DNA from: Roseimicrobium gellanilyticum
Lineage (GTDB): Bacteria; Verrucomicrobiota; Verrucomicrobiia; Verrucomicrobiales; Verrucomicrobiaceae
Assembly: GCF_003315205.1 (NCBI RefSeq)
Contig: NZ_QNRR01000015.1
Span: 1-64,000 of the forward strand
Reading direction: 5' to 3'
DNA: 64,000 nt
Part shown: in pieces, positions 40,546 to 59,857 of the stretch
How positions within the stretch are numbered: position 1 is the first letter of the stretch
Layout of the letters: each line of letters begins with the position of its first letter
The notes under the pieces: generated by a model
Databases searched by the model: none
What the model was told of the DNA's origin: nothing
Seen by the model: only the letters and a program-made list of their open reading frames with translations
Translations under genes and position numbers: made by a program

Positions 40546-40680
40546 TCGCGGAGTGAGGCCCGAACCGGTGAATCTTGGGTGAGGCCATGGGTTCGGGTGT
40601 CGCTCCGCGACACTGGATGACCTCCCACCCACCCGGCCTTGAAAGGCCGGGCTAAGATACGATCGTCGCTCCGCGACTGG
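40546..40680. repeat. Palindromic repeat C, copy 2
   Basis: Contains AGTCGCGGAG, CCGAACCGGTGAATC, TCGCTCCGCGACACTGG, CGGCCTTGAAAGGCCG and GTCGCTCCGCGACT. The ends are reverse complements, giving a large foldback. Nearly identical to 42457-42592. Confidence 0.8.
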
Positions 40681-42456: not shown

Positions 42457-42592
42457 GTCGCGGAGCGACGGCCGAACCGGTGAATCTTGGGTGAGGTCAT
42501 GGGTTCGGGTGTCGCTCCGCGACACTGGATGACCTCCCACCCACCCGGCCTTGAAAGGCCGGGCTAAGATACGATCGTCGCTCCGCGACTGC
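42457..42592. repeat. Palindromic repeat C, copy 3
   Basis: Nearly identical to 40546-40680, including both GTCGCTCCGCGAC stems and the CGGCCTTGAAAGGCCG hairpin. Confidence 0.8.
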
Positions 42593-48802: not shown

Positions 48803-49112
48803 AGAGCATTTAAATAAAGCCATAGCCAATTCGAATTGACCTATGGCAGCTCGTCCCGGAAGGACGCTGGATGGTAGCCGGTGGTGTAGGGAGCCTCAGC
48901 GACCGCAACCACCGGATCTACGCACCAAACGTTCTTGCGTCCCGGACGGGACGTCGGAGGAGTGTCATAGACTTCCGGCACGGGGAAAAGACCATGGCCA
49001 CCTCTTCCGCCGTCCCATCCGGGACGGAGTAGCTTTGGCATCCATGATCCGGTGGTTCCCGGCCTGATTACAGGCCTCCACCACCGGCTACCATCCAGCG
49101 TCCCTCCGGGAC
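48803..49112. mobile_element. Non-autonomous inverted-repeat element (MITE-like)
   Basis: CTAGAGCATTTAAATAAAG (48801-48819) resembles the IS630 terminus, then a palindrome around CAATTCGAATTG. Arms at 48853-48884 and 49081-49112 are reverse complements over 32 bp with one mismatch (TCCCGGAAGGACGCTGG on the left). An inner pair CCACCGGATC / GATCCGGTGG is also present. No coding capacity. Confidence 0.6.
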
Positions 49113-51918: not shown

Positions 51919-52152
51919 GGTGGGGAGAACGAGGATGAGGTGGAGCAGGAATGGGGTGCGCCCGGAGGTCCCGGAAATGCGGGGAAAGTGAAATGGCAAT
52001 TCACTTTTCCTGACATTCGGTAACACCGGTCCGGTCGCTCAAAAGGGTTGCGGTGGAGGGTGTGTTTGCTATGATGTTCACGTGAACACTTCCATATGCA
52101 GTCACCTTCCTTGCCTCGTCCTGCCGCGGACGTCGCGGGCGTGGGGGTACTC

Positions 52153-52335
52153 CTAGGCTTTCTTCTTGGGAGGCTTGGGGCCGGCGGCTTTTTTCCCCTG
52201 GTCGGGGATGAGCGAGCGGAGCCAGTCGGCGAGGGTCTTTCCCTCGCGCCTGGCGGCCTCCATCATGGCAGTGGCCTCTTCTTCGGTGGCGTAGAAACCG
52301 ACCATACGCTTTCCGGCTTTTCTCTGGTTGGGCAT
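52153..52335 (-). CDS. Small ribbon-helix-helix-like regulator, about 60 aa
   Basis: From ATG 52335: MPNQRKAGKRMVGFYATEEE, then ATAMMEAARREGKTLADWLR and a Lys/Pro tail (KKAAGPKPPKKK). A strand followed by two helices with the end LADWLRSLI is typical of Arc/MetJ-class RHH DNA-binding proteins. It is divergent from the small-gene operon, across two operator-like palindromes, so it may be that module's repressor (inference). Confidence 0.68.
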   Translation of the reverse strand: MPNQRKAGKRMVGFYATEEEATAMMEAARREGKTLADWLRSLIPDQGKKAAGPKPPKKKA

Positions 52336-52383
52336 GGTGGTGACGAGACACCGTCTGAAAAGATTCTTCAACATTTTTCTTGC

Positions 52384-52421
52384 GGGTGTCTATGCACCCA
52401 TGTTATTGGTGTCTATACACC
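52384..52421. promoter_or_regulatory. Two operator-like palindromes in the divergent control region
   Basis: GGGTGTCTATGCACCC (52384-52399) and GGTGTCTATACACC (52408-52421): two imperfect palindromes 23 bp apart with arms GGTGT/ACACC, lying between the RHH gene and ATG 52426. Such paired sites are common for RHH or phage-type repressors. Confidence 0.65.
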
Positions 52422-52425
52422 TACT

Positions 52426-52854
52426 ATGAATGCAATTGTGTATGTCAACACGCCGCTGGAGGCCCCGGAGCATGCGGCCCTGGCAGCTCTGGCACGCCGG
52501 GAGGGTCGGGCCAAGGGACAACAGCTCCGGCTGCTGGCCATCCAGGCGATGCGGGACCGGAACCAGGGGAGGAGCAAGAGCAGGAGCAGAGGCATCATGC
52601 CCGCGGGCTCTGACTCGTATGTGCCACACGCGCCGGCTCCCCTGCCCTCGTGCTCGTGTTCCTCTTCCCCCTGCTCGTGCTCGTGCTCGGATGCTGGAGC
52701 GGCAGGCTCGCCGAAGGTGCAGCTGGCTACGGCCTCTGATTCCAGGACGAGAAGGAGTACGAGCACGAATACGAACACGAACACGAGCCCCTGCACCGGC
52801 ACGGGGACGGATGCGAGAGCTGCCCTGCAGAAAGGAGGCCGCGCCCGTGGCTGA
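52426..52854 (+). CDS. First gene of the phage-like module, 142 aa
   Basis: MNAIVYVNTPLEAPEHAALA then ARREGRAKGQQLRLLAIQAM gives a structured N-terminal half. The C-terminal half is a low-complexity stretch rich in Ser, Cys, Pro and Thr (SCSCSSSPCSCSCSD; TNTNTNTSPCTGTGTD). It starts 5 bp after the operator pair and overlaps the next gene by 8 bp. Function unknown. Confidence 0.6.
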   Translation: MNAIVYVNTPLEAPEHAALAALARREGRAKGQQLRLLAIQAMRDRNQGRSKSRSRGIMPAGSDSYVPHAPAPLPSCSCSSSPCSCSCSDAGAAGSPKVQLATASDSRTRRSTSTNTNTNTSPCTGTGTDARAALQKGGRARG

Positions 52855-53203
52855 GTCTCTTCACAGTGGCTGCTATGCCGTCTCCGCGCGCGAGGTCGCG
52901 GCGGTGCGGCTGGGGGTGGGACGCGGGGCGCGGCATGAGATCATCCTGCGCAGCGGCGTGCGGCTGCCGGTGCCGTATGCGCAGGCCACGCTGCTGGCAG
53001 ACAAGATCTGGGATGGTGTGTGGCCGGATGGCGCCACGCGATGCCCACGCAAAAAAACGCGGATCACCACGCGCTCCCGTGCCCGTGCCCGTGCGCCATC
53101 GCAGGCTGCGAGCGGACCCATCCGGCAGGCCATCATCCACACCCTCACGAGGGAAGCACAAACTCCGAGCTCAAGACAGACACGCCCACACCATGAATGC
53201 TGA
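52847..53203 (+). CDS. Small module protein, 118 aa, GTG start
   Basis: Start at GTG 52847, with a perfect AAAGGAGG ending 8 bp upstream. The N-terminal half is a compact alpha/beta piece (GCYAVSAREVAAVRLGVGRG; RSGVRLPVPYAQATLLADKI; WDGVWPDGATRCP). The C-terminal half is Arg/Thr-rich and basic, which may bind nucleic acid. It overlaps the upstream gene by 8 bp and the downstream gene by 11 bp, implying translational coupling. Confidence 0.68.
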   Translation: MAESLHSGCYAVSAREVAAVRLGVGRGARHEIILRSGVRLPVPYAQATLLADKIWDGVWPDGATRCPRKKTRITTRSRARARAPSQAASGPIRQAIIHTLTREAQTPSSRQTRPHHEC

Positions 53204-53579
53204 CATCACCCATTTGAAGACCCGTGCTGAGCAGGCTGTGCCCATGTGGCCGAAGCGCAAACCCGGCCCCGTGGGACGCTGGAGCCCACTGTGGCCGGTG
53301 TATGCGGACCTGCGGCGCAAGGGCTTCACCATCCGCGAGGCCATCGACTGGCTCATCCGCGAAGGCGCGGTGCCGGCGAACGACCGGAAGAAGGCGGAGT
53401 ACGGCCTGCCCATGGTGGACTCCCGCCGTCGTCGTGGAGAGGTCCCGGCCAGCGGAGTGGAGCCCGGGCTGAAACCCAGGAAGAAGACATCTGCCGCCAC
53501 TCCCACCGCCGCCCTCGCCACCAAATCCCCACGACGCACGCTCTCCGTGGCCCAGCCAGTCGCCAGGCAGGATGCCTGA
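53193..53579 (+). CDS. Small module protein, 128 aa
   Basis: From ATG 53193: WSPLWPVYADLRRKGFTIRE, AIDWLIREGAVPANDRKKAE. A helix-rich N-terminal domain resembles a small DNA-binding or phage-accessory fold, followed by a basic Thr/Ala/Arg tail. Overlaps the preceding gene by 11 bp. Function unknown. Confidence 0.65.
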   Translation: MNADITHLKTRAEQAVPMWPKRKPGPVGRWSPLWPVYADLRRKGFTIREAIDWLIREGAVPANDRKKAEYGLPMVDSRRRRGEVPASGVEPGLKPRKKTSAATPTAALATKSPRRTLSVAQPVARQDA

Positions 53580-53626
53580 CACCTGCAGTCAGGCTGGAAC
53601 CCCAACCTCCGCAGTTCCTATCCATC

Positions 53627-53730
53627 CATCATTCCATCATTCCATCATTCCATCATTCCATCATTCCATCATTCCATCATTCCATCATTCCATCATTCCA
53701 TCATTCCATCACTCCATCACTCCATCATTC
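53627..53730 (+). repeat. 8-bp tandem array (ATTCCATC)n
   Basis: About twelve units of ATTCCATC, drifting to ACTCCATC at the 3' end. It stops 7 bp before ATG 53737 of the next small gene. Confidence 0.95.
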
Positions 53731-53736
53731 CCTCTC

Positions 53737-53874
53737 ATGTCCTCCTATACCCTATTGCAACTTCTCCATGCGCTGGATCCCCTTCATGCGCCGTGGCCAG
53801 TGGCGCTCCTCATGCTGCTGGCGGCCATCTTCCTCGGCCGTCGCCTGTGGAGGATGCTGTGGAGGGAGAGCTGA
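53737..53874 (+). CDS. Single-pass membrane microprotein, 45 aa
   Basis: MSSYTLLQLLHALDPLHAPW then PVALLMLLAAIFLGRRLWRM. One hydrophobic helix with a basic C-terminal flank, resembling a small holin-like or accessory membrane protein. The ATG comes right after the ATTCCATC array. Confidence 0.55.
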   Translation: MSSYTLLQLLHALDPLHAPWPVALLMLLAAIFLGRRLWRMLWRES

Positions 53875-53890
53875 GGGTTGATTGTCTATG

Positions 53891-54025
53891 GTTGATGGTT
53901 GATAGCCTGAGAAGCGCGAGGCCCCAACTGACCGTGCCAGCACCTGATGCGAAGCGTCGAGGGGGGCGATGCCAATGCAGCAAGGATGAAAGCCCTCCGC
54001 AGACCTCAGGCTATCAACCATCAAC
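53891..54025. repeat. 135-bp element with 21-bp perfect inverted ends
   Basis: GTTGATGGTTGATAGCCTGAG (53891-53911) is exactly reverse-complemented at 54005-54025. The ends are built from the heptamer GGTTGAT. The 93 bp between is unrelated to the neighbours. No gene is seen in the surrounding 53875-54378. Confidence 0.85.
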
Positions 54026-54378
54026 TCTCAACCATCAACCTTCCCCCCTTTGCCCCGGAGGGACGTACGCTGAGCGATATCCGGCGGTGAGGACCTTGCG
54101 TTCTGGTCTTCATCCGCTGCGGAAGATGGGCAGGTGAGAGAGGCGACATCAGACTCCTGCGTCGTCGTCATTTCCAGGAGCCGGTCGCCGTCCTGCCCCA
54201 CTTCATCCCCGGGCCACGACGCCCCACACAAGCCAGCGCCCTCCGGGGCATCCCCCCTCTTTGGGGATTTCAGATTGGAAATTTGAAATCTCAGATTCGG
54301 ACAGCACGCCCCCAAGGGAACCCTTTCACCCCACAGATACTACACCATCCTATACCCTACTACACCCTCGCTACACCC

Positions 54379-54687
54379 ATGAGCACGCCCCAGGATTGGA
54401 ATGATGATGATGATGCCGCCGCTGCTGCTGAACATAACGAAATGGAAGACGCCTTCGAAGATGCGGACGAGCACAACTATGATGATGAGGACGACGGCGA
54501 CGGCGATTACGATTACGACTACGAGGATGATGATGAGCCGGTGGTCGATAAGGAAGGCCGGCCTGAGGATCTCGCTGCGCCGGGAGGCTGTCTCTGGACG
54601 GTAGTGGCCGCCCTGGCGGTCTGGATGGCCGTGTCCCTTGCGGTGCTGTGCTTGTGCCTGTGCATGGCACCCGGCGCGGGGAGGTGA
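54379..54687 (+). CDS. Very acidic single-pass membrane protein, 102 aa
   Basis: MSTPQDWNDDDDAAAAAEHN, then a run of Asp, Glu and Tyr (DEDDGDGDYDYDYEDDDE, about residues 38-55), then a hydrophobic helix LWTVVAALAVWMAVSLAVLC. The acidic head (residues 1-67) would face the cytoplasm or periplasm with the helix at the C-terminus. Such acidic heads can mimic DNA or bind cations (speculative). Confidence 0.6.
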   Translation: MSTPQDWNDDDDAAAAAEHNEMEDAFEDADEHNYDDEDDGDGDYDYDYEDDDEPVVDKEGRPEDLAAPGGCLWTVVAALAVWMAVSLAVLCLCLCMAPGAGR

Positions 54688-54771
54688 GCGCGCAGAGCTG
54701 CATGCCACATGTCACGGAGCTTTCCACCTTCAACCCTCTTTCTTCACTTCAATATCCAACCTTTGTCCCTT

Positions 54772-55317
54772 ATGCAAAACACGACTGAAACCTTTTCCTC
54801 CCCTCCCCTTTCCACCACGGCAGCTGAGACGCCCGTGAACATCGCAACGACTCCATCTCCGCCTGCATGCGCTGAAGGGACAGCCGCACCCGCCGGCACA
54901 CTCACCACCCTCCCGGGCAAGCCTTCCGCGCTCATTCGCGTAGCGCTGGCGGACCTGCGGAAGGTGGAGGCGCTGCCGGATATCTATCGGGTGAATATGG
55001 ATGTGTGGCATCGCGAGCATCGTGCAGATGCGGTGTGCGAGGTGTGCCTGGCAGGGTCCATGATTTCACAGAGCCTCGGCGCCCAGCCGGGAGAGCATCG
55101 GGGGCCGGAGGACTTCGACCAGGAGACGACGTGGAAGCTTTATGCGCTGAATGAATTCCGCGTGGGCAATGTATACGATGGCCTGACCTATCTGGACCGT
55201 TCGGACCTGTGGCTCGGCGCGGACACGCGGACTATCACGGAGTACACCACGAGTCCGTCGGGATTTCACCGGGATATGCAGAAGCTGGCGGGCGACCTGG
55301 AAGCGGTGGGGCTGTGA
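54772..55317 (+). CDS. Module protein with CxxC-like centre, 181 aa
   Basis: From ATG 54772. A Thr/Pro/Ala-rich N-terminus (1-50) is followed by KPSALIRVALADLRKVEALP, VNMDVWHREHRADAVCEVCL (CEVC) and WKLYALNEFRVGNVYDGLTY. The folded part appears complete to the stop. Phage-type hypothetical proteins with this W-H-x-x-H...CxxC arrangement exist, but I cannot name one. Confidence 0.68.
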   Translation: MQNTTETFSSPPLSTTAAETPVNIATTPSPPACAEGTAAPAGTLTTLPGKPSALIRVALADLRKVEALPDIYRVNMDVWHREHRADAVCEVCLAGSMISQSLGAQPGEHRGPEDFDQETTWKLYALNEFRVGNVYDGLTYLDRSDLWLGADTRTITEYTTSPSGFHRDMQKLAGDLEAVGL

Positions 55318-55431
55318 ACGGTGAGCGGTGCGACGGTAAGCGGTAGGACGGTGGGGTTCCAAGGGGAACATGACGTCGCCCGTTGCTTGCCATCCGATGC
55401 CGCAAAGAAGCGGGGCCTACTGAACCCGTCA

Positions 55432-55535
55432 CACCGTCACACCGTCACACCGTCACACCGTCACACCGTCACACCGTCACACCGTCACACCGTCACACCG
55501 CTCACCGCTCACCGCTCACCGCTCACCGCTCACCG
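55432..55535 (+). repeat. Tandem array: 8-mer ACACCGTC then 7-mer ACCGCTC
   Basis: About nine octamer units switch directly to five heptamers. The array ends 8 bp before ATG 55543. The short GGTGAGCGGTG at about 55320-55331, just after the previous stop, is the reverse complement of the heptamer part, so the interval has inverted ends. Confidence 0.95.
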
Positions 55536-55542
55536 CACCCCA

Positions 55543-55860
55543 ATGTCCTCGCGCTTTGCACTTCCCGCCACTGAGGCAGCATCTGATGCACACACCGTCG
55601 CCTACCACCAGACGCATACCGTGTATGGATTGCCGGCGTGCCCGCTGTGTGGCTGGCGCTCGATGATTGTGCGCAGCTACGGCCGCCACCGGGAAGGACG
55701 CAGCTACTATGTGGTGTGCGACCACTGCGCAGAGGTGGAGGGAAACGGCAGCCTGGAAGGACCCGTGTGTGAGTCCGCCGAGCTGGCGGGGAAGGCATTC
55801 AATCAAGCGATGCGGAAGTACGCTGAGTCCTTCATGCGCGGTGATGGCGGGGAGTATTGA
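55543..55860 (+). CDS. Lar-like zinc-ribbon protein, 105 aa
   Basis: LPACPLCGWRSMIVRSYGRH, then RSYYVVCDHCAEVEG, then a closing helix (ESAELAGKAFNQAMRKYA). Two CxxC knuckles plus a terminal amphipathic helix match the layout of phage Lar-family (restriction alleviation-like) zinc ribbons. In phages these counter host restriction; here the role is inferred from shape only. Confidence 0.7.
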   Translation: MSSRFALPATEAASDAHTVAYHQTHTVYGLPACPLCGWRSMIVRSYGRHREGRSYYVVCDHCAEVEGNGSLEGPVCESAELAGKAFNQAMRKYAESFMRGDGGEY

Positions 55861-56986
55861 GATGCGAGGGCTTCGGGCCGGAGGCTTCAGGCTTGGACCT
55901 TGGAGCTTGAGGAGGAAGCAACTTGTGAAGGGGCGAATGACGATGATGATCAAGATGAGCAACAAGGCGAGGTGGAGTGACCCTTGGGCGCGCGGGATTT
56001 CGCGCGAGGTTCTGACCTGCGTGGATGGGAGCGCGTCTTCCGCTGGCAGGCATGATCTTTGGGAAGCGGGGGCCTTCGAATGCGTGCCAGCAGCCATGCT
56101 TCGTGCTGTGCCTGACGCTCCACCCGTTGGCACGGCTTCGTGCCGTCATGTCGTGGGCCTTGGCACGGGTTTTGTGGAACGCTTCCAGCGTTCTCATCCC
56201 GCGCTCGGTTCACCCAGGGTGGCGCTCGCGATGCGAGCTGACCCTGGGCTGCGCAGTGTGCAACGCCTTCGGCGTACCACGAAGGCTGTGCAGCAGGCGG
56301 CGGCGATGGTTGCACCCGCTCGCAAGGTCAGGCGTCCTGACGGTTTAGCGACTTCGTCGCGGCAAAGCGTCCAGCAGGCTGCACTTTGGGAAAGCGGTCC
56401 CGCTCTGCGCATGTGCGTCAGGATTAGAAACGGCGTGATATACACAGACAGATTCGAACGCTGTGACGCGAAGCGTCCCTGGACTGCGCGCAGCCCTGCT
56501 GCCGCTTTCCCGAAGTGCAGCCTGCTGCACGCTCCACTGCGACGAAGTCGCCAAGCGTTATGGACACATCTTACCACGAGCCAGTGTCAACATCGCCACA
56601 GCAGGCTGTGGACTCTCCAAAGCGGCAGCAGGGCTGCGCGCAGTCCAAGGTGGCTTCGCCACACAAGTTGCCCTATGGGCGGGGTGGTGAGGCTGTTGGA
56701 AGGTGAGGTCGGCCCAATCAAGAGAAGCTACATCAAATGCTCGACGACTTATCCTCACGTTCATGCGCACAGCGGGACTTTGCACGTGCTATGCCTCCGG
56801 CGTAACGGGAGGCGGGTGCGAAGCGGCAGAAGGTGGAGCGTCAGGCACAGCGGGTGGTGTGGGTGCTGGCAGGTGGTGGAAGGCCCTCGCTTACCAGAGC
56901 AATTGGATGCGCATGAGAAGGATGAATCTGGGTGTGATGGTATATCCACACATGATATCTCCTCTGCTACCAAGTCCTCACACTGA
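55861..56986. repeat. Field of dispersed repeats without a gene
   Basis: Contains an element like the 9299-9572 family (56160-56285: GTGGAACGCTTCCAGCGTTC, CCCAGGGTGGCGCTCG, CAACGCCTTCGGCGTA), a piece related to the 14160-14655 repeats (56350-56640, CAGCAGGCTGCACTT and its inverse) and repeat B copy 7 at 56834-56890. A long plus-strand open frame across it (55667-56986) is produced by the repeats and is not coding. Confidence 0.7.
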
Positions 56987-57100
56987 GGGGGCAGGAGTGC
57001 CCCCCGATCCTTGGGGCTCGGGCTGCGCCCTCGCCAGCGAGCCGATGACTACTGACTACTGACTACTGACTACTGACTACTGACCACTGTCCACTGACTA
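56987..57100 (+). repeat. Conserved 60-bp block plus heptamer array, copy 1
   Basis: The block GGGGGCAGGAGTGC, GATCCTTGGGG, CTCGGGCTGCGCCCTCGCC, AGCGAGCCG is followed by about seven TGACTAC heptamers (57046-57100, ending TGACCACTGTCCACTGACTA). The same block and array type recur at 57980-58141. The array ends 6 bp before ATG 57106. Confidence 0.9.
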
Positions 57101-57105
57101 CCAAC

Positions 57106-57501
57106 ATGAATACGCCGATGCACGAATACCGAGGCAGGCACGCGCCACACCAGCCGTGTCCGCAACTCCACCTGCACTCCCCTACTCTGGATGCGGTCAT
57201 CGAGAGGCTCTGCCTGGTGAATGATGTGAGCTGCATGCATGAAGCCATACGCCTGGTGGATGCGATGCGCCCGCCGATGGCCATCACAACGATGGGCGAT
57301 CTCTTTGCTCACGTGGATGCGTTCGAGGACGAGAACGAGAACGAGGAGAGGGATGATGGATGCGAGATCTGCGGGGTGCGCTGCTCCAGCACGGCGCATG
57401 CGCCGTATCCGGGACTGTGTGTGCGCTGCACGGCGAAGGTGCAGCATCTGCAAATGCAGAAGCGCCCCCCGCAGCAGAAAGGAGGTGGGGAGTTGCGATG
57501 A
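57106..57501 (+). CDS. Module protein with C-terminal zinc ribbon, 131 aa
   Basis: MNTPMHEYRGRHAPHQPCPQ, then a helical region (LDAVIERLCLVNDVSCMHEA), an acidic stretch (EDENENEERDDG) and CEICGVRCSSTA...GLCVRCTAK, two CxxC pairs of a zinc ribbon. A good ribosome-binding site is not evident, as the heptamer array runs up to the ATG. It overlaps the next gene by ATGA. Confidence 0.7.
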   Translation: MNTPMHEYRGRHAPHQPCPQLHLHSPTLDAVIERLCLVNDVSCMHEAIRLVDAMRPPMAITTMGDLFAHVDAFEDENENEERDDGCEICGVRCSSTAHAPYPGLCVRCTAKVQHLQMQKRPPQQKGGGELR

Positions 57502-57680
57502 ATCGGCTCACCAAACCTCAACCAGAGCCGATGACGGCATTGGAATATGCGCGGCGTCACGCCGATGCGTGCGTGAAGGCGGATGTGGTGCCGGGGCCAG
57601 GTGTTCCGGATGGGGATGCCTGTGATGCGGTGGAGGCATCGCATACGCCGGATAAGCGGGACGATGGTTCGCCTCAATAA
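57498..57680 (+). CDS. Small module protein, 60 aa
   Basis: MNRLTKPQPEPMTALEYARR HADAC, then an acidic, Pro/Gly-rich tail. The ATG overlaps the previous stop (ATGA), and GGAGG lies 12 bp upstream. Function unknown. Confidence 0.5.
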   Translation: MNRLTKPQPEPMTALEYARRHADACVKADVVPGPGVPDGDACDAVEASHTPDKRDDGSPQ

Positions 57681-57686
57681 GCTGAC

Positions 57687-57860
57687 ATGTCTGGTCCGAA
57701 GATACAGGCAGCTCGCAGGCCGAGGGGCTGCCACGAGGGCGCTCCGCTGGATGCTGGAGATCCGTGGTTCAAGAGCATGCGAGATGCGGTCCGCGTGTCA
57801 GCTCACCGGCTCCGCACCGCGCTCCAAAGCGCTTCGCGCAAGGTGGTGCACTGTCGCATG
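57687..57860 (+). pseudogene. Possible truncated small gene
   Basis: MSGPKIQAARRPRGCHEGAP and LDAGDPWFKSMRDAVRVSA read like the start of a protein. The frame then runs into repeat-like sequence (CTCCAAAGCGCTTCGCGCAAGG, also at 40386 and 42318) and continues open to 58046 without protein character. Confidence 0.3.
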
Positions 57861-57979
57861 CATTCGATGCGTGGGATGCGCGCCCGCCGGTACTTTGTCT
57901 GGGTCTGGGTCTGGCTCTGCATTTCTCACCGCAGTCGCAACCGTCATGCACATGCAGGGGTGCATCGCAAGGCTCCCAT

Positions 57980-58141
57980 GGGGGCAGGAGTGCTCCCGAT
58001 CCTTGGGCTCGGGCTGCGCCCTCGCCAGCGAGCCGGTGACCGATGACCGATGACCGATGACTACTGACTACTGACTACTGACTACTGACCAGTGACCAGT
58101 GACCAGTGACCAGTGACCCATGACCCATGACCCATGACCAC
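57980..58141 (+). repeat. Conserved 60-bp block plus heptamer array, copy 2
   Basis: The same block as 56987-57045 is followed by 15 heptamers in four homogeneous groups, in order: CGATGAC (about 3), CTACTGA (about 4), CCAGTGA (about 5) and CCCATGA (about 3), 58037-58141. All share the TGA core at fixed phase while the other bases change group by group. The array lies 50 bp upstream of the replication gene. Confidence 0.92.
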
Positions 58142-58191
58142 ACCCCAGCCAGGCGACGTGCCCGTCCACCCATCTTTTATCCATTCGACTT

Positions 58192-59148
58192 ATGCCTTGT
58201 GAAACTCAAGAACTCCATCGTGATGCGCCGGCGTTTGACTTCTACTGCGAGCGCTGGACGCACGGCACGCGGCACCTGACGAAGGTGGAACGCTGCGACT
58301 ACCTGGACCTGCTGCTGCACCAGTGGACGAATGACGGCCTGCCGGCGGACCTGGATCTGCTCGCCCGGTTGGTGGGGTATCGCAAAGGCTCGCAGATATC
58401 GCCTCTGGTGCTGGAGAAATTCCCCGTGGCAGCGGATGGGAAGCGGCGGAACGTGCGGCTGGAGACGGAGCGCGTGAAGCAGCGGGACCGCATCCGCAGC
58501 AAGCGGCAGGGCGCGGCCAAGACGAACGAACGACGCTGGGGAAGCAAGGCTGGAAAGGGGCGGGTGCCATCGCAGAACGAGTCTCATAGCGATGCGATAT
58601 CGAGTCGCATAGCGACTCGCTCAGCGACGATTGAGCGACACGATATCGAGTCGCCACCACTCACCACCCACCACCCACCCGGAGATCCTGATATCTATCT
58701 ATCTGTACCCCCGGAGGGGGCTGGCTGGCCGAAGACAGAGGACCAATGTCGTTCCATGGCTGCAGTTCATGGAGTAGACCCGGAGTATGCGGCCACCGTC
58801 TGGAATCAACATGAGTCCACGGGCGACTACACCCAGAAAGACCAGCATGGCAATGCGAGGCCGATATTGAAGTTTGCCAGCTACCTGAAGTTCCGCTGGA
58901 ACTGCCGGTCGAGAAGGAATGACGACGCCAAAGCCCTGGAAAAGACGAAGGCAGAGCTGCGGCGCCAGGGGATGACGCAGAAAGCACCGCCATCAGCGCA
59001 CATGCAGAGTCGTGATGGTGGGACTGTTGCGGCCGGTGTCCGAGCATCAGCACGTGATGTGCGAACACAGCGGTCCGGTGAAATCCCGACGGATGTGAGC
59101 ATGGACAAGGTGAAGGTCTATCGATTGGAGGATTGTGAGCATGAGTGA
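58192..59148 (+). CDS. DUF1376-type phage replication protein, 318 aa
   Basis: FDFYCERWTHGTRHLTKVER, CDYLDLLLHQWTNDGLPADL, DLLARLVGY is the DUF1376 signature, an N-terminal winged-helix domain found in phage and plasmid replication initiators. A basic linker follows (RSKRQGAAKTNERRWGSKAG). The C-terminal domain (about 195-260; QCRSMAAVHGVDPEYAATVW, ILKFASYLKFRWNCR) resembles the helicase-binding part of such proteins. It overlaps the helicase-loader gene by 8 bp, forming the replication pair of the module. Confidence 0.82.
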   Translation: MPCETQELHRDAPAFDFYCERWTHGTRHLTKVERCDYLDLLLHQWTNDGLPADLDLLARLVGYRKGSQISPLVLEKFPVAADGKRRNVRLETERVKQRDRIRSKRQGAAKTNERRWGSKAGKGRVPSQNESHSDAISSRIATRSATIERHDIESPPLTTHHPPGDPDIYLSVPPEGAGWPKTEDQCRSMAAVHGVDPEYAATVWNQHESTGDYTQKDQHGNARPILKFASYLKFRWNCRSRRNDDAKALEKTKAELRRQGMTQKAPPSAHMQSRDGGTVAAGVRASARDVRTQRSGEIPTDVSMDKVKVYRLEDCEHE

Positions 59149-59857
59149 GAGGTTGTTGTGCTGTTCACGCTGTGGCGGGCCTGTGGAAGGCGTGGATGCG
59201 ATGGAGGCGGAGGCCCTGCGCTCCGTCTTCAACCGCGCTCCGCTGTTGCTGTGCGGGCCTTGTGAAAAGGCGGATGCGGAAGAGCTGGCGAAGAAGCGGG
59301 CGCCACGGCAGGCTCGTGTGCCCCAGGCGTGGCCGGAGGAGTGGCCCCGGCGATCCATCGCCGACCTGGAACATTTCAGAGAGGCTCCGCTGCGCATGGC
59401 ACGCACGATTCAAAAGAACATCGAGGCGAACCGTGGCACCTTCGTGATCCTCGGCGATCGTGGCCGTGGGAAGACGGTGATGGCCACTTGGCTGGCGGAG
59501 CAGCGCCGGCAGCAGGGTCAGAGCCCGGGTGTATATGTGCGCTCGCACGATCTCTTCGCCACCATCCGCCGCGCCTGGCACCCGCAGAGCAAGGAGGATG
59601 AATGGGCCGTATTGGAACATTATCGCAAAACCCCGTTCCTCGTGATCGATGAATTCCAGGAGCGCAGCGAGAGCGAGTGGGAGAACCGCACCCTGGTGAA
59701 CATCCTCGACCACCGCCACGGCAACATCCTGCCGACCGTGCTGATAGCCAATCTCTCCGCCGACGCCTTCGGCAAATCCGTGGGCGCCTCCATGGTCGAC
59801 CGCATCTCCCAGACCGGCGGGATCGTGGAGTGCGGGTGGGGTGGATTGAGGGGGTGA
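59141..59857 (+). CDS. DnaC-like helicase loader (AAA+ ATPase), 238 aa
   Basis: N-terminal zinc knuckles (C8-x2-C11, C38-x2-C41) precede a compact AAA+ ATPase: Walker A GDRGRGKT (105-112), Walker B FLVIDEF (D170, E171), a sensor ILPTVLIANLS and a C-terminal arginine-finger region. DnaC/DnaI/IstB-like loaders place the replicative helicase; pairing with a DUF1376 gene is the usual phage arrangement. ATG 59141 is preferred over GTG 59135. Confidence 0.88.
   Translation: MSERLLCCSRCGGPVEGVDAMEAEALRSVFNRAPLLLCGPCEKADAEELAKKRAPRQARVPQAWPEEWPRRSIADLEHFREAPLRMARTIQKNIEANRGTFVILGDRGRGKTVMATWLAEQRRQQGQSPGVYVRSHDLFATIRRAWHPQSKEDEWAVLEHYRKTPFLVIDEFQERSESEWENRTLVNILDHRHGNILPTVLIANLSADAFGKSVGASMVDRISQTGGIVECGWGGLRG

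Follow-up and report, generated by a model that had tools for sequence, protein, structure and literature searches.

The repeated block and the heptanucleotide arrays that occur together at two places in a 64,000-nucleotide stretch of the Roseimicrobium gellanilyticum genome (hereafter, the window) are probably two separate things lying side by side, namely STRR-like heptanucleotide repeats that turn over by slippage and an extragenic block of two hairpins, with their shared arrangement at the two sites owed to one local copying. The arrays themselves are ordinary in kind, and TGAC arrays do not need the block. The window is part of contig C15 (157,294 bases) of a genome of 7.93 Mb in 32 contigs.

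Two copies of a block precede two heptanucleotide arrays

Direct reading of the sequence revealed a GC-rich block of 57–59 bp in two copies about 1 kb apart, each directly 5′ of TGAC-type heptamers (Table 1) and with 94% identity between the copies across 61 query positions, which bears out the original prediction that the same block is repeated before the arrays at 57046 and 58037. Its statement that the heptamer groups of array 2 succeed one another with the core in constant phase was likewise confirmed, the TGAC phase being kept throughout. The block folds into two hairpins, the first formed by half (a) (GGGGGCAGGAGTGCCCCC + GATCCTTGGG) and the second by half (b), a 29-bp sequence (GGCTCGGGCTGCGCCCTCGCCAGCGAGCC) that shows no difference between the two copies; as RNA, the block is no more stable than its dinucleotide shuffles (z of −0.50 and −0.23). 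By eye, the flanks 5′ of the blocks and 3′ of the arrays are unlike between the two sites. Both arrays lie within a gene module. The 131-aa ORF had no match in Pfam or PHROG, the DUF1376 protein had no relative in the genome-contig collection searched, and the phage and plasmid collections searched gave no match.

Table 1. Coordinates of the block copies, arrays and module genes in the window.
Feature	Position	Strand	Description
Block copy 1	56987–57045		
Block copy 1, half (a)	56987–57014	+	GGGGGCA-GGAG-TGCCCCC hairpin + CGATCCTTGGG; dispersed REP-like element
Block copy 1, half (b)	57015–57043	+	29-bp second hairpin; 2 genome sites only
Heptamer array 1	57046–57101	+	TGACTAC ×5, TGACCAC, TGTCCAC, TGACTAC
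ORF after array 1	57106–57501	+	131 aa; homologous DNA in G001
Block copy 2	57980–58036		
Block copy 2, half (a)	57980–58005	+	
Block copy 2, half (b)	58006–58034	+	Identical to half (b) of copy 1
Heptamer array 2	58037–58141	+	TGACCGA ×3, TGACTAC ×4, TGACCAG ×4, TGACCCA ×3, TGACCAC ×1
DUF1376/primosomal-protein-like gene, after array 2	58192–59148	+	
DnaC-like helicase loader gene, same module	59135–59857	+	
Related module array	53625–53731	+	TCCATCAT ×13; 5 bp 5′ of ATG 53737
Related module arrays	55426–55536	+	CCGTCACA ×10, then CACCGCT ×6; 6 bp 5′ of ATG 55543

The block and the arrays are separable across the genome

A genome-wide pattern search on both strands, allowing up to 3 mismatches, recovered 21 copies of half (a) and none of the reversed pattern; the copy at 56987, which carries an extra base, was added to these matches, for a total of about 22. 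Half (a) is thus a short dispersed palindrome, present in many copies and able to form a hairpin, as in REP elements, and at several copies a second, variable hairpin follows. Half (b), by the same type of search and with 3 mismatches likewise allowed, has 2 sites genome-wide and no others, each of them 5′ of an array (a 32-base pattern over half (b), with up to 3 mismatches, is expected 0.00 times in the window and was found twice).

Only 2 of the 22 half (a) copies run directly into a heptamer array. The neighborhood scan, which covered 18 distinct copies within 250 bp, with the 56987 copy read by eye, found an array at the focal copy at 57981, another about 205 bp away from the copy at C15:100732 (L307), and none at the remaining 16; at 4 loci the scan scored a better-matching half (a) copy of the same locus instead (107–122 bp away for L297, L302, and L308, and the other focal copy for L002). 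Conversely, the block stands at 2 of the 23 TGAC array starts in the genome, defined as at least 4 TGAC units whose preceding heptamer does not start with T, and is absent from the other 21; among the matches listed, further TGAC arrays missed by the start pattern lie at C1:711877, C4:57102, and C4:128992. Most half (a) copies thus lack an adjacent array and most arrays lack the block, which are the two outcomes that the original prediction had named as counting against it. The two are separable, and the proposal of one defined element, with the block as seed or template of the array, found no support. Among 57 relatives, the combined block and array query had a listed match in 14, either to half (a) in the same-genus genome G001 or to an array elsewhere, and half (b) was covered by none of the matches listed, with at most 15 candidates scored per genome. 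Because not all first-look candidates received a Blast score (40 of 61 did in the genome itself, up to 15 per genome in the relatives, and 40 of 408 in G001), absences in those searches are weak, and the counts given here rest on the pattern searches.

Other dispersed sequences also adjoin arrays: one of them, TTCAACGCAGAGACACAGAGACGCAGAGGAACTTCGGAGACTGAGAA- (ending CGCAGAGGAACTTCGGAGACTGAGAA-), precedes 3 of 24 TGAC arrays (L067, L076, and L080), and, as judged by eye, short arrays follow 3 of the 6 copies (49576, 51801, and 40898) of a 63-bp dispersed repeat found in the window. Dispersed repeats and arrays therefore occupy the same intergenic gaps, and no single block is required, although some link between repeats and arrays may exist, given the association at both half (b) sites and at 3 of 24 arrays for the CGCAGAGGAACTTCGGAGACTGAGAA- sequence. 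The block is best read as a dispersed REP-like hairpin, half (a), joined to a second hairpin, half (b), in extragenic DNA, and probably has no role in making arrays. Given that half (b) is confined to this pair of sites and that the outer flanks are unlike, the most likely origin of the pair is a single copying of the block and the array start over approximately 1 kb, through local duplication or gene conversion, with the arrays diverging later.

Heptanucleotide arrays are regionally concentrated and lie near gene ends

Contig C15 yielded 24 period-7 rows in TRF, compared with 1 in C1:1–400000. A stricter detector found 14 period-7 segments on C15 (157 kb), 22 in G001 at 2.60–2.76 Mb, and 2 in C1:1–400000, the first 2 regions having been picked as those holding the window or its match, so that their densities are not genome averages; it found none in 240 kb of G001 elsewhere and none in one first-order Markov shuffle of C15. 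Tandem 7-nt units thus occur on C15 beyond chance (14 segments versus 0 in the shuffle), as in long simple sequence repeats with their units of 5–11 nt, and, because C15 and the G001 region share syntenic stretches, the same neighborhood is array-rich in both species. The units are various, including ATTTGAG, ATTTATG, TGACTAC, GTTCTTG, CACCGCT, AGGCAAC, and others. Four contigs (C2, C12, C20, and C21) end inside TGACTAC arrays of 13–14 units, and perfect arrays of about that size may therefore have been collapsed in assembly. Head-to-head inverted heptamer pairs, which could form hairpins, were observed for ATTTGAG/CTCAAAT (G001 reverse complement, 125805–125852) and for AGTCAGT beside TGACCAA (C15:73997–74081).

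Placement was assessed against heuristic ORFs rather than gene calls. Outside these ORFs lie 33 of 38 period-7 segments, compared with 220 of 800 random 50-bp segments, whereas segments with a period of 6, 9, or 12 fall inside in 17 of 20 cases, so that the 7-nt units, not being a multiple of 3, lie mostly outside coding sequence. Start-facing sides at 0–20 bp were enriched (9/25 for period-7 segments versus 15/212 for random ones; Fisher P = 0.0002), as were stop-facing sides within 5 bp (7/41 versus 10/225; P = 0.007). All 30 TGAC arrays checked fall outside the selected ORFs. Where a stop neighbors an array on the right within 200 bp (14 cases), it is at −4 to +3 bp in 10, a count that is suggestive only, because the arrays contain stop codons and may pull ORF ends to their edges.

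Of 288 genomes from the same phylum, 39 carried TGACNNN arrays (5 units plus a sixth TGAC), which were also present, among the matches listed from a named collection, in Cyanobacteria, Chloroflexi, Bacteroidetes, Acidobacteria, Planctomycetes, Verrucomicrobia, Kiritimatiellota, Proteobacteria, and others, a spread that speaks to presence only, since the search pattern preselects TGAC; many of the 137 arrays read across phyla, again among the matches listed, mix units in phase. When runs of the same trinucleotide at 7-nt spacing were counted, TGA/TCA led narrowly on C15 (15, against 14 for ACT/AGT), trailed AAT/ATT (19) and GAT/ATC (16) in G001 with 15 runs, and ranked below the AAT and ATC families in C15 and G001 alike when runs were limited to those with at least 3 unit types, and we rejected a TGA core as a general rule. 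Substitutions cluster by phase (P < 0.05) in 2 of 16 testable arrays found without reference to TGAC, array 2 being one of them (P = 0.03). The distinct units that contain TGA or TCA (13 of 21, compared with 21% of random heptamers) were not relied on, because the units are mutually related, and the reversed-pattern control for TGAC arrays, which returned counts of the same order as the TGAC pattern, is not independent, because TGACTAC arrays match it as well; it shows that TGAC has no special standing among heptamer arrays.

Arrays differ at matching junctions in a same-genus genome

Genome G001 carries the same module (window 51984–59851 corresponding to reverse-complement 106408–114090) without the block. 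Before the ORF at 53737, the 13 octamers of the window are matched by 2 of a close octamer in G001; before 55543, the 10 + 6 units by 1 and 2 close units; before 57106, the block and 8 heptamers by 2 CATCACTC octamers; and before the DUF1376 gene at 58192, the block and 15 units by neither. In the opposite direction, G001 has GGTGAGT ×12.6 after the DnaC-like gene, where the window has no array, and the gene ends at C15 114291 and 114498 carry heptamers in both species, with different sequences (the arrays at 54013 and 54340 were left out of the detailed comparison). Copy number thus differs between close relatives, here 2 species of one genus, and the junctions display turnover, not conservation. 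Within the window, a duplicated dispersed element around an Acido-Lenti-1 match has a decamer ×6 in one copy and a single diverged unit in the other. Two further observations concern this region: an IMG/VR contig of 102 kb (L309) carries the G001 copy of the module, so that the region is called viral there, and is, by eye, the same sequence as G001, and a dispersed element of approximately 200 bp, with inverted-repeat matches, lies at about 56451–56667 of the window and has several dozen G001 matches among the matches listed.

The most plausible course is that arrays are born, grow, shrink, and are replaced outside genes, often right where a gene begins or ends, with slipped-strand mispairing as the most likely mechanism. 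Differences of 2 to 13, 1 + 2 to 10 + 6, and 1 to 6 units fit slippage at small seeds, as growth or as shrinkage, and compound arrays would arise through successive, in-phase amplification of variant units that mutation or exchange with other TGAC arrays had supplied. Slippage from a shared seed does not explain the junctions with unlike repeats in both species (57046, and C15 114291 and 114498), nor the missing intermediates between the 4 homogeneous groups of array 2.

An effect of the arrays on translation of the next gene is possible. That they are selected as leaders or trailers, tuning translation or preventing read-through as proposed for TAACTGA repeats, appears unlikely, even though 4 of the 5 module arrays read (53625, 54340, 55426, and 57046) end 0–7 bp before an ATG, the enrichment of period-7 segments near starts points the same way, and array 1, which stops 4 bp short of ATG 57106, is nearly unstructured as RNA (−1.0 kcal/mol). 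The fifth array, at 58037, is 50 bp from its ATG (58192), arrays adjoin stops as well as starts, and the matching G001 junctions do with other units, fewer units, or none. A G-poor coding strand, which was seen near starts in just 7 of 10 cases and was mixed near stops, proved too weak a lead.

Somewhat more doubtful is an active process, beyond passive slippage, that makes or replaces the heptamer arrays of gene boundaries with a preference for 7-nt steps and for particular sequences, for which a polymerase or a repair pathway could be responsible. The differing units at the same junctions, the in-phase TGAC core, the array ends at stop codons, and the occurrence of TGACNNN in unrelated phyla are its grounds, and the cases that shared-seed slippage leaves unexplained are set out above.

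Candidate enzymes and array folding

The original prediction proposed looking for a polymerase or retroelement nearby. The genome has a single reverse transcriptase (RVT_1) match, located on contig C11 instead of C15, and all 13 Y1_Tnp matches likewise lie on contigs other than C15. At the 8 loci examined among these 13, no copy of half (a) lies beside the RAYT (Y1_Tnp) gene; 2 loose matches to the half (a) core occur (L286 and L287), neither with GATCCTTGG. These results bear on whether block and array make up a single element, mobile or templated, in which the hairpin primes or guides array synthesis or the pair moves together. Half (b) is accompanied by an array at both of its sites, the block and the array start are the sole part common to the two places, and the genome does hold Y1_Tnp matches; against this stand the 21 TGAC array starts without the block, the 20 half (a) copies that do not directly enter an array, the module of G001 that lacks the block, and the location of the enzyme matches on other contigs, which together make a single element very improbable.

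Two other repeats were observed near or around Y1_Tnp genes. Acido-Lenti-1 (Rfam RF01687) has 2 matches in the window, at 40632–40678 and 42544–42590 in the duplicated dispersed element; a third match, at 49049, is weak and does not reach the gathering score. Because a near-identical motif occurs 3 times in the 3.3-kb locus around a Y1_Tnp gene (L280), it may in this genome be a RAYT-associated repeat. One of the longest mixed TGAC arrays (C21:39139–39976, L283) follows a Y1_Tnp gene at a distance of approximately 220 bp and sits behind a CCAGGGCGTTGCCCTGG hairpin.

We rejected, as least likely of all, the reading of array 2 as a purpose-built hairpin whose groups of 3-4-4-3 units pair with one another, since its fold (−18.9 kcal/mol, z = −4.43), though striking against dinucleotide shuffles (0 of 200 as good), is ordinary against unit-level controls: 13% of 4,000 random choices of 4 units from the repertoire of the genome match the idealized 3-4-4-3 fold, of the 23 alternative orders of these groups, 15 give a fold at least as good, and among 286 partitions the sizes 3-4-4-3 come 62nd.

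Relation to known repeats and implications

The preferred reading, of slippage-prone arrays beside an independent block, has published precedent in all its main traits. The likeness to cyanobacterial short tandem repeats noted in the original prediction was upheld, in that TGACNNN arrays, with TGACCAA and TGACTAC units among them, turned up in Nostoc, Tychonema, and Microcoleus, among others. On the opposite strand TGACCAA reads TTGGTCA, an STRR unit, and TGACCAA arrays are present in this genome as in cyanobacteria. Both systems are built of heptamers; they differ in phylum, the genome studied here has many other units, and any common descent is conjectural. Half (a) resembles REP-type palindromes in being short, palindromic, and dispersed on both strands, and differs in its absence from the flanks of the Y1_Tnp loci examined.

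Further parallels come from 2 published accounts. As cited in PMC4679880, Mrazek (2007) described heptanucleotide long simple sequence repeats as tandem, intergenic 7-nt units, with heptamers the commonest class in most genomes, units of multiples of 3 in ORFs, and polymerase slippage as a proposed origin; the arrays studied here share the intergenic 7-nt units, the predominance of period 7, and the confinement of multiple-of-3 units largely to ORFs, and differ in being concentrated in particular chromosomal regions. PMC4679880 itself reports that the intergenic TAACTGA repeats of Beggiatoaceae, Cyanobacteria, and Bacteroidetes adjoin start codons, that close strains differ by 7-nt lengths, and that they mix with other heptamers in Microcystis. 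Like the arrays described here, those repeats are intergenic, near starts, patchy, mixed with other heptamers, and found at contig ends; there a single heptamer is involved, whereas here it is a TGACNNN family together with unrelated units. PMC4692102 describes heptamer repeats in Xanthomonas and Nostoc, their positions in Xanthomonas being mostly kept while length and sequence vary. For the phylum of Roseimicrobium, we found no earlier report of heptamer arrays in the open-licence library searched.

The 2 sites advise caution, in that a common flank next to a repeat array need not amount to a single device. The same-genus pair makes array growth and replacement traceable at matching gene junctions in array-rich regions, and such regions could help test the reasons for the bacterial preference for 7-nt units.
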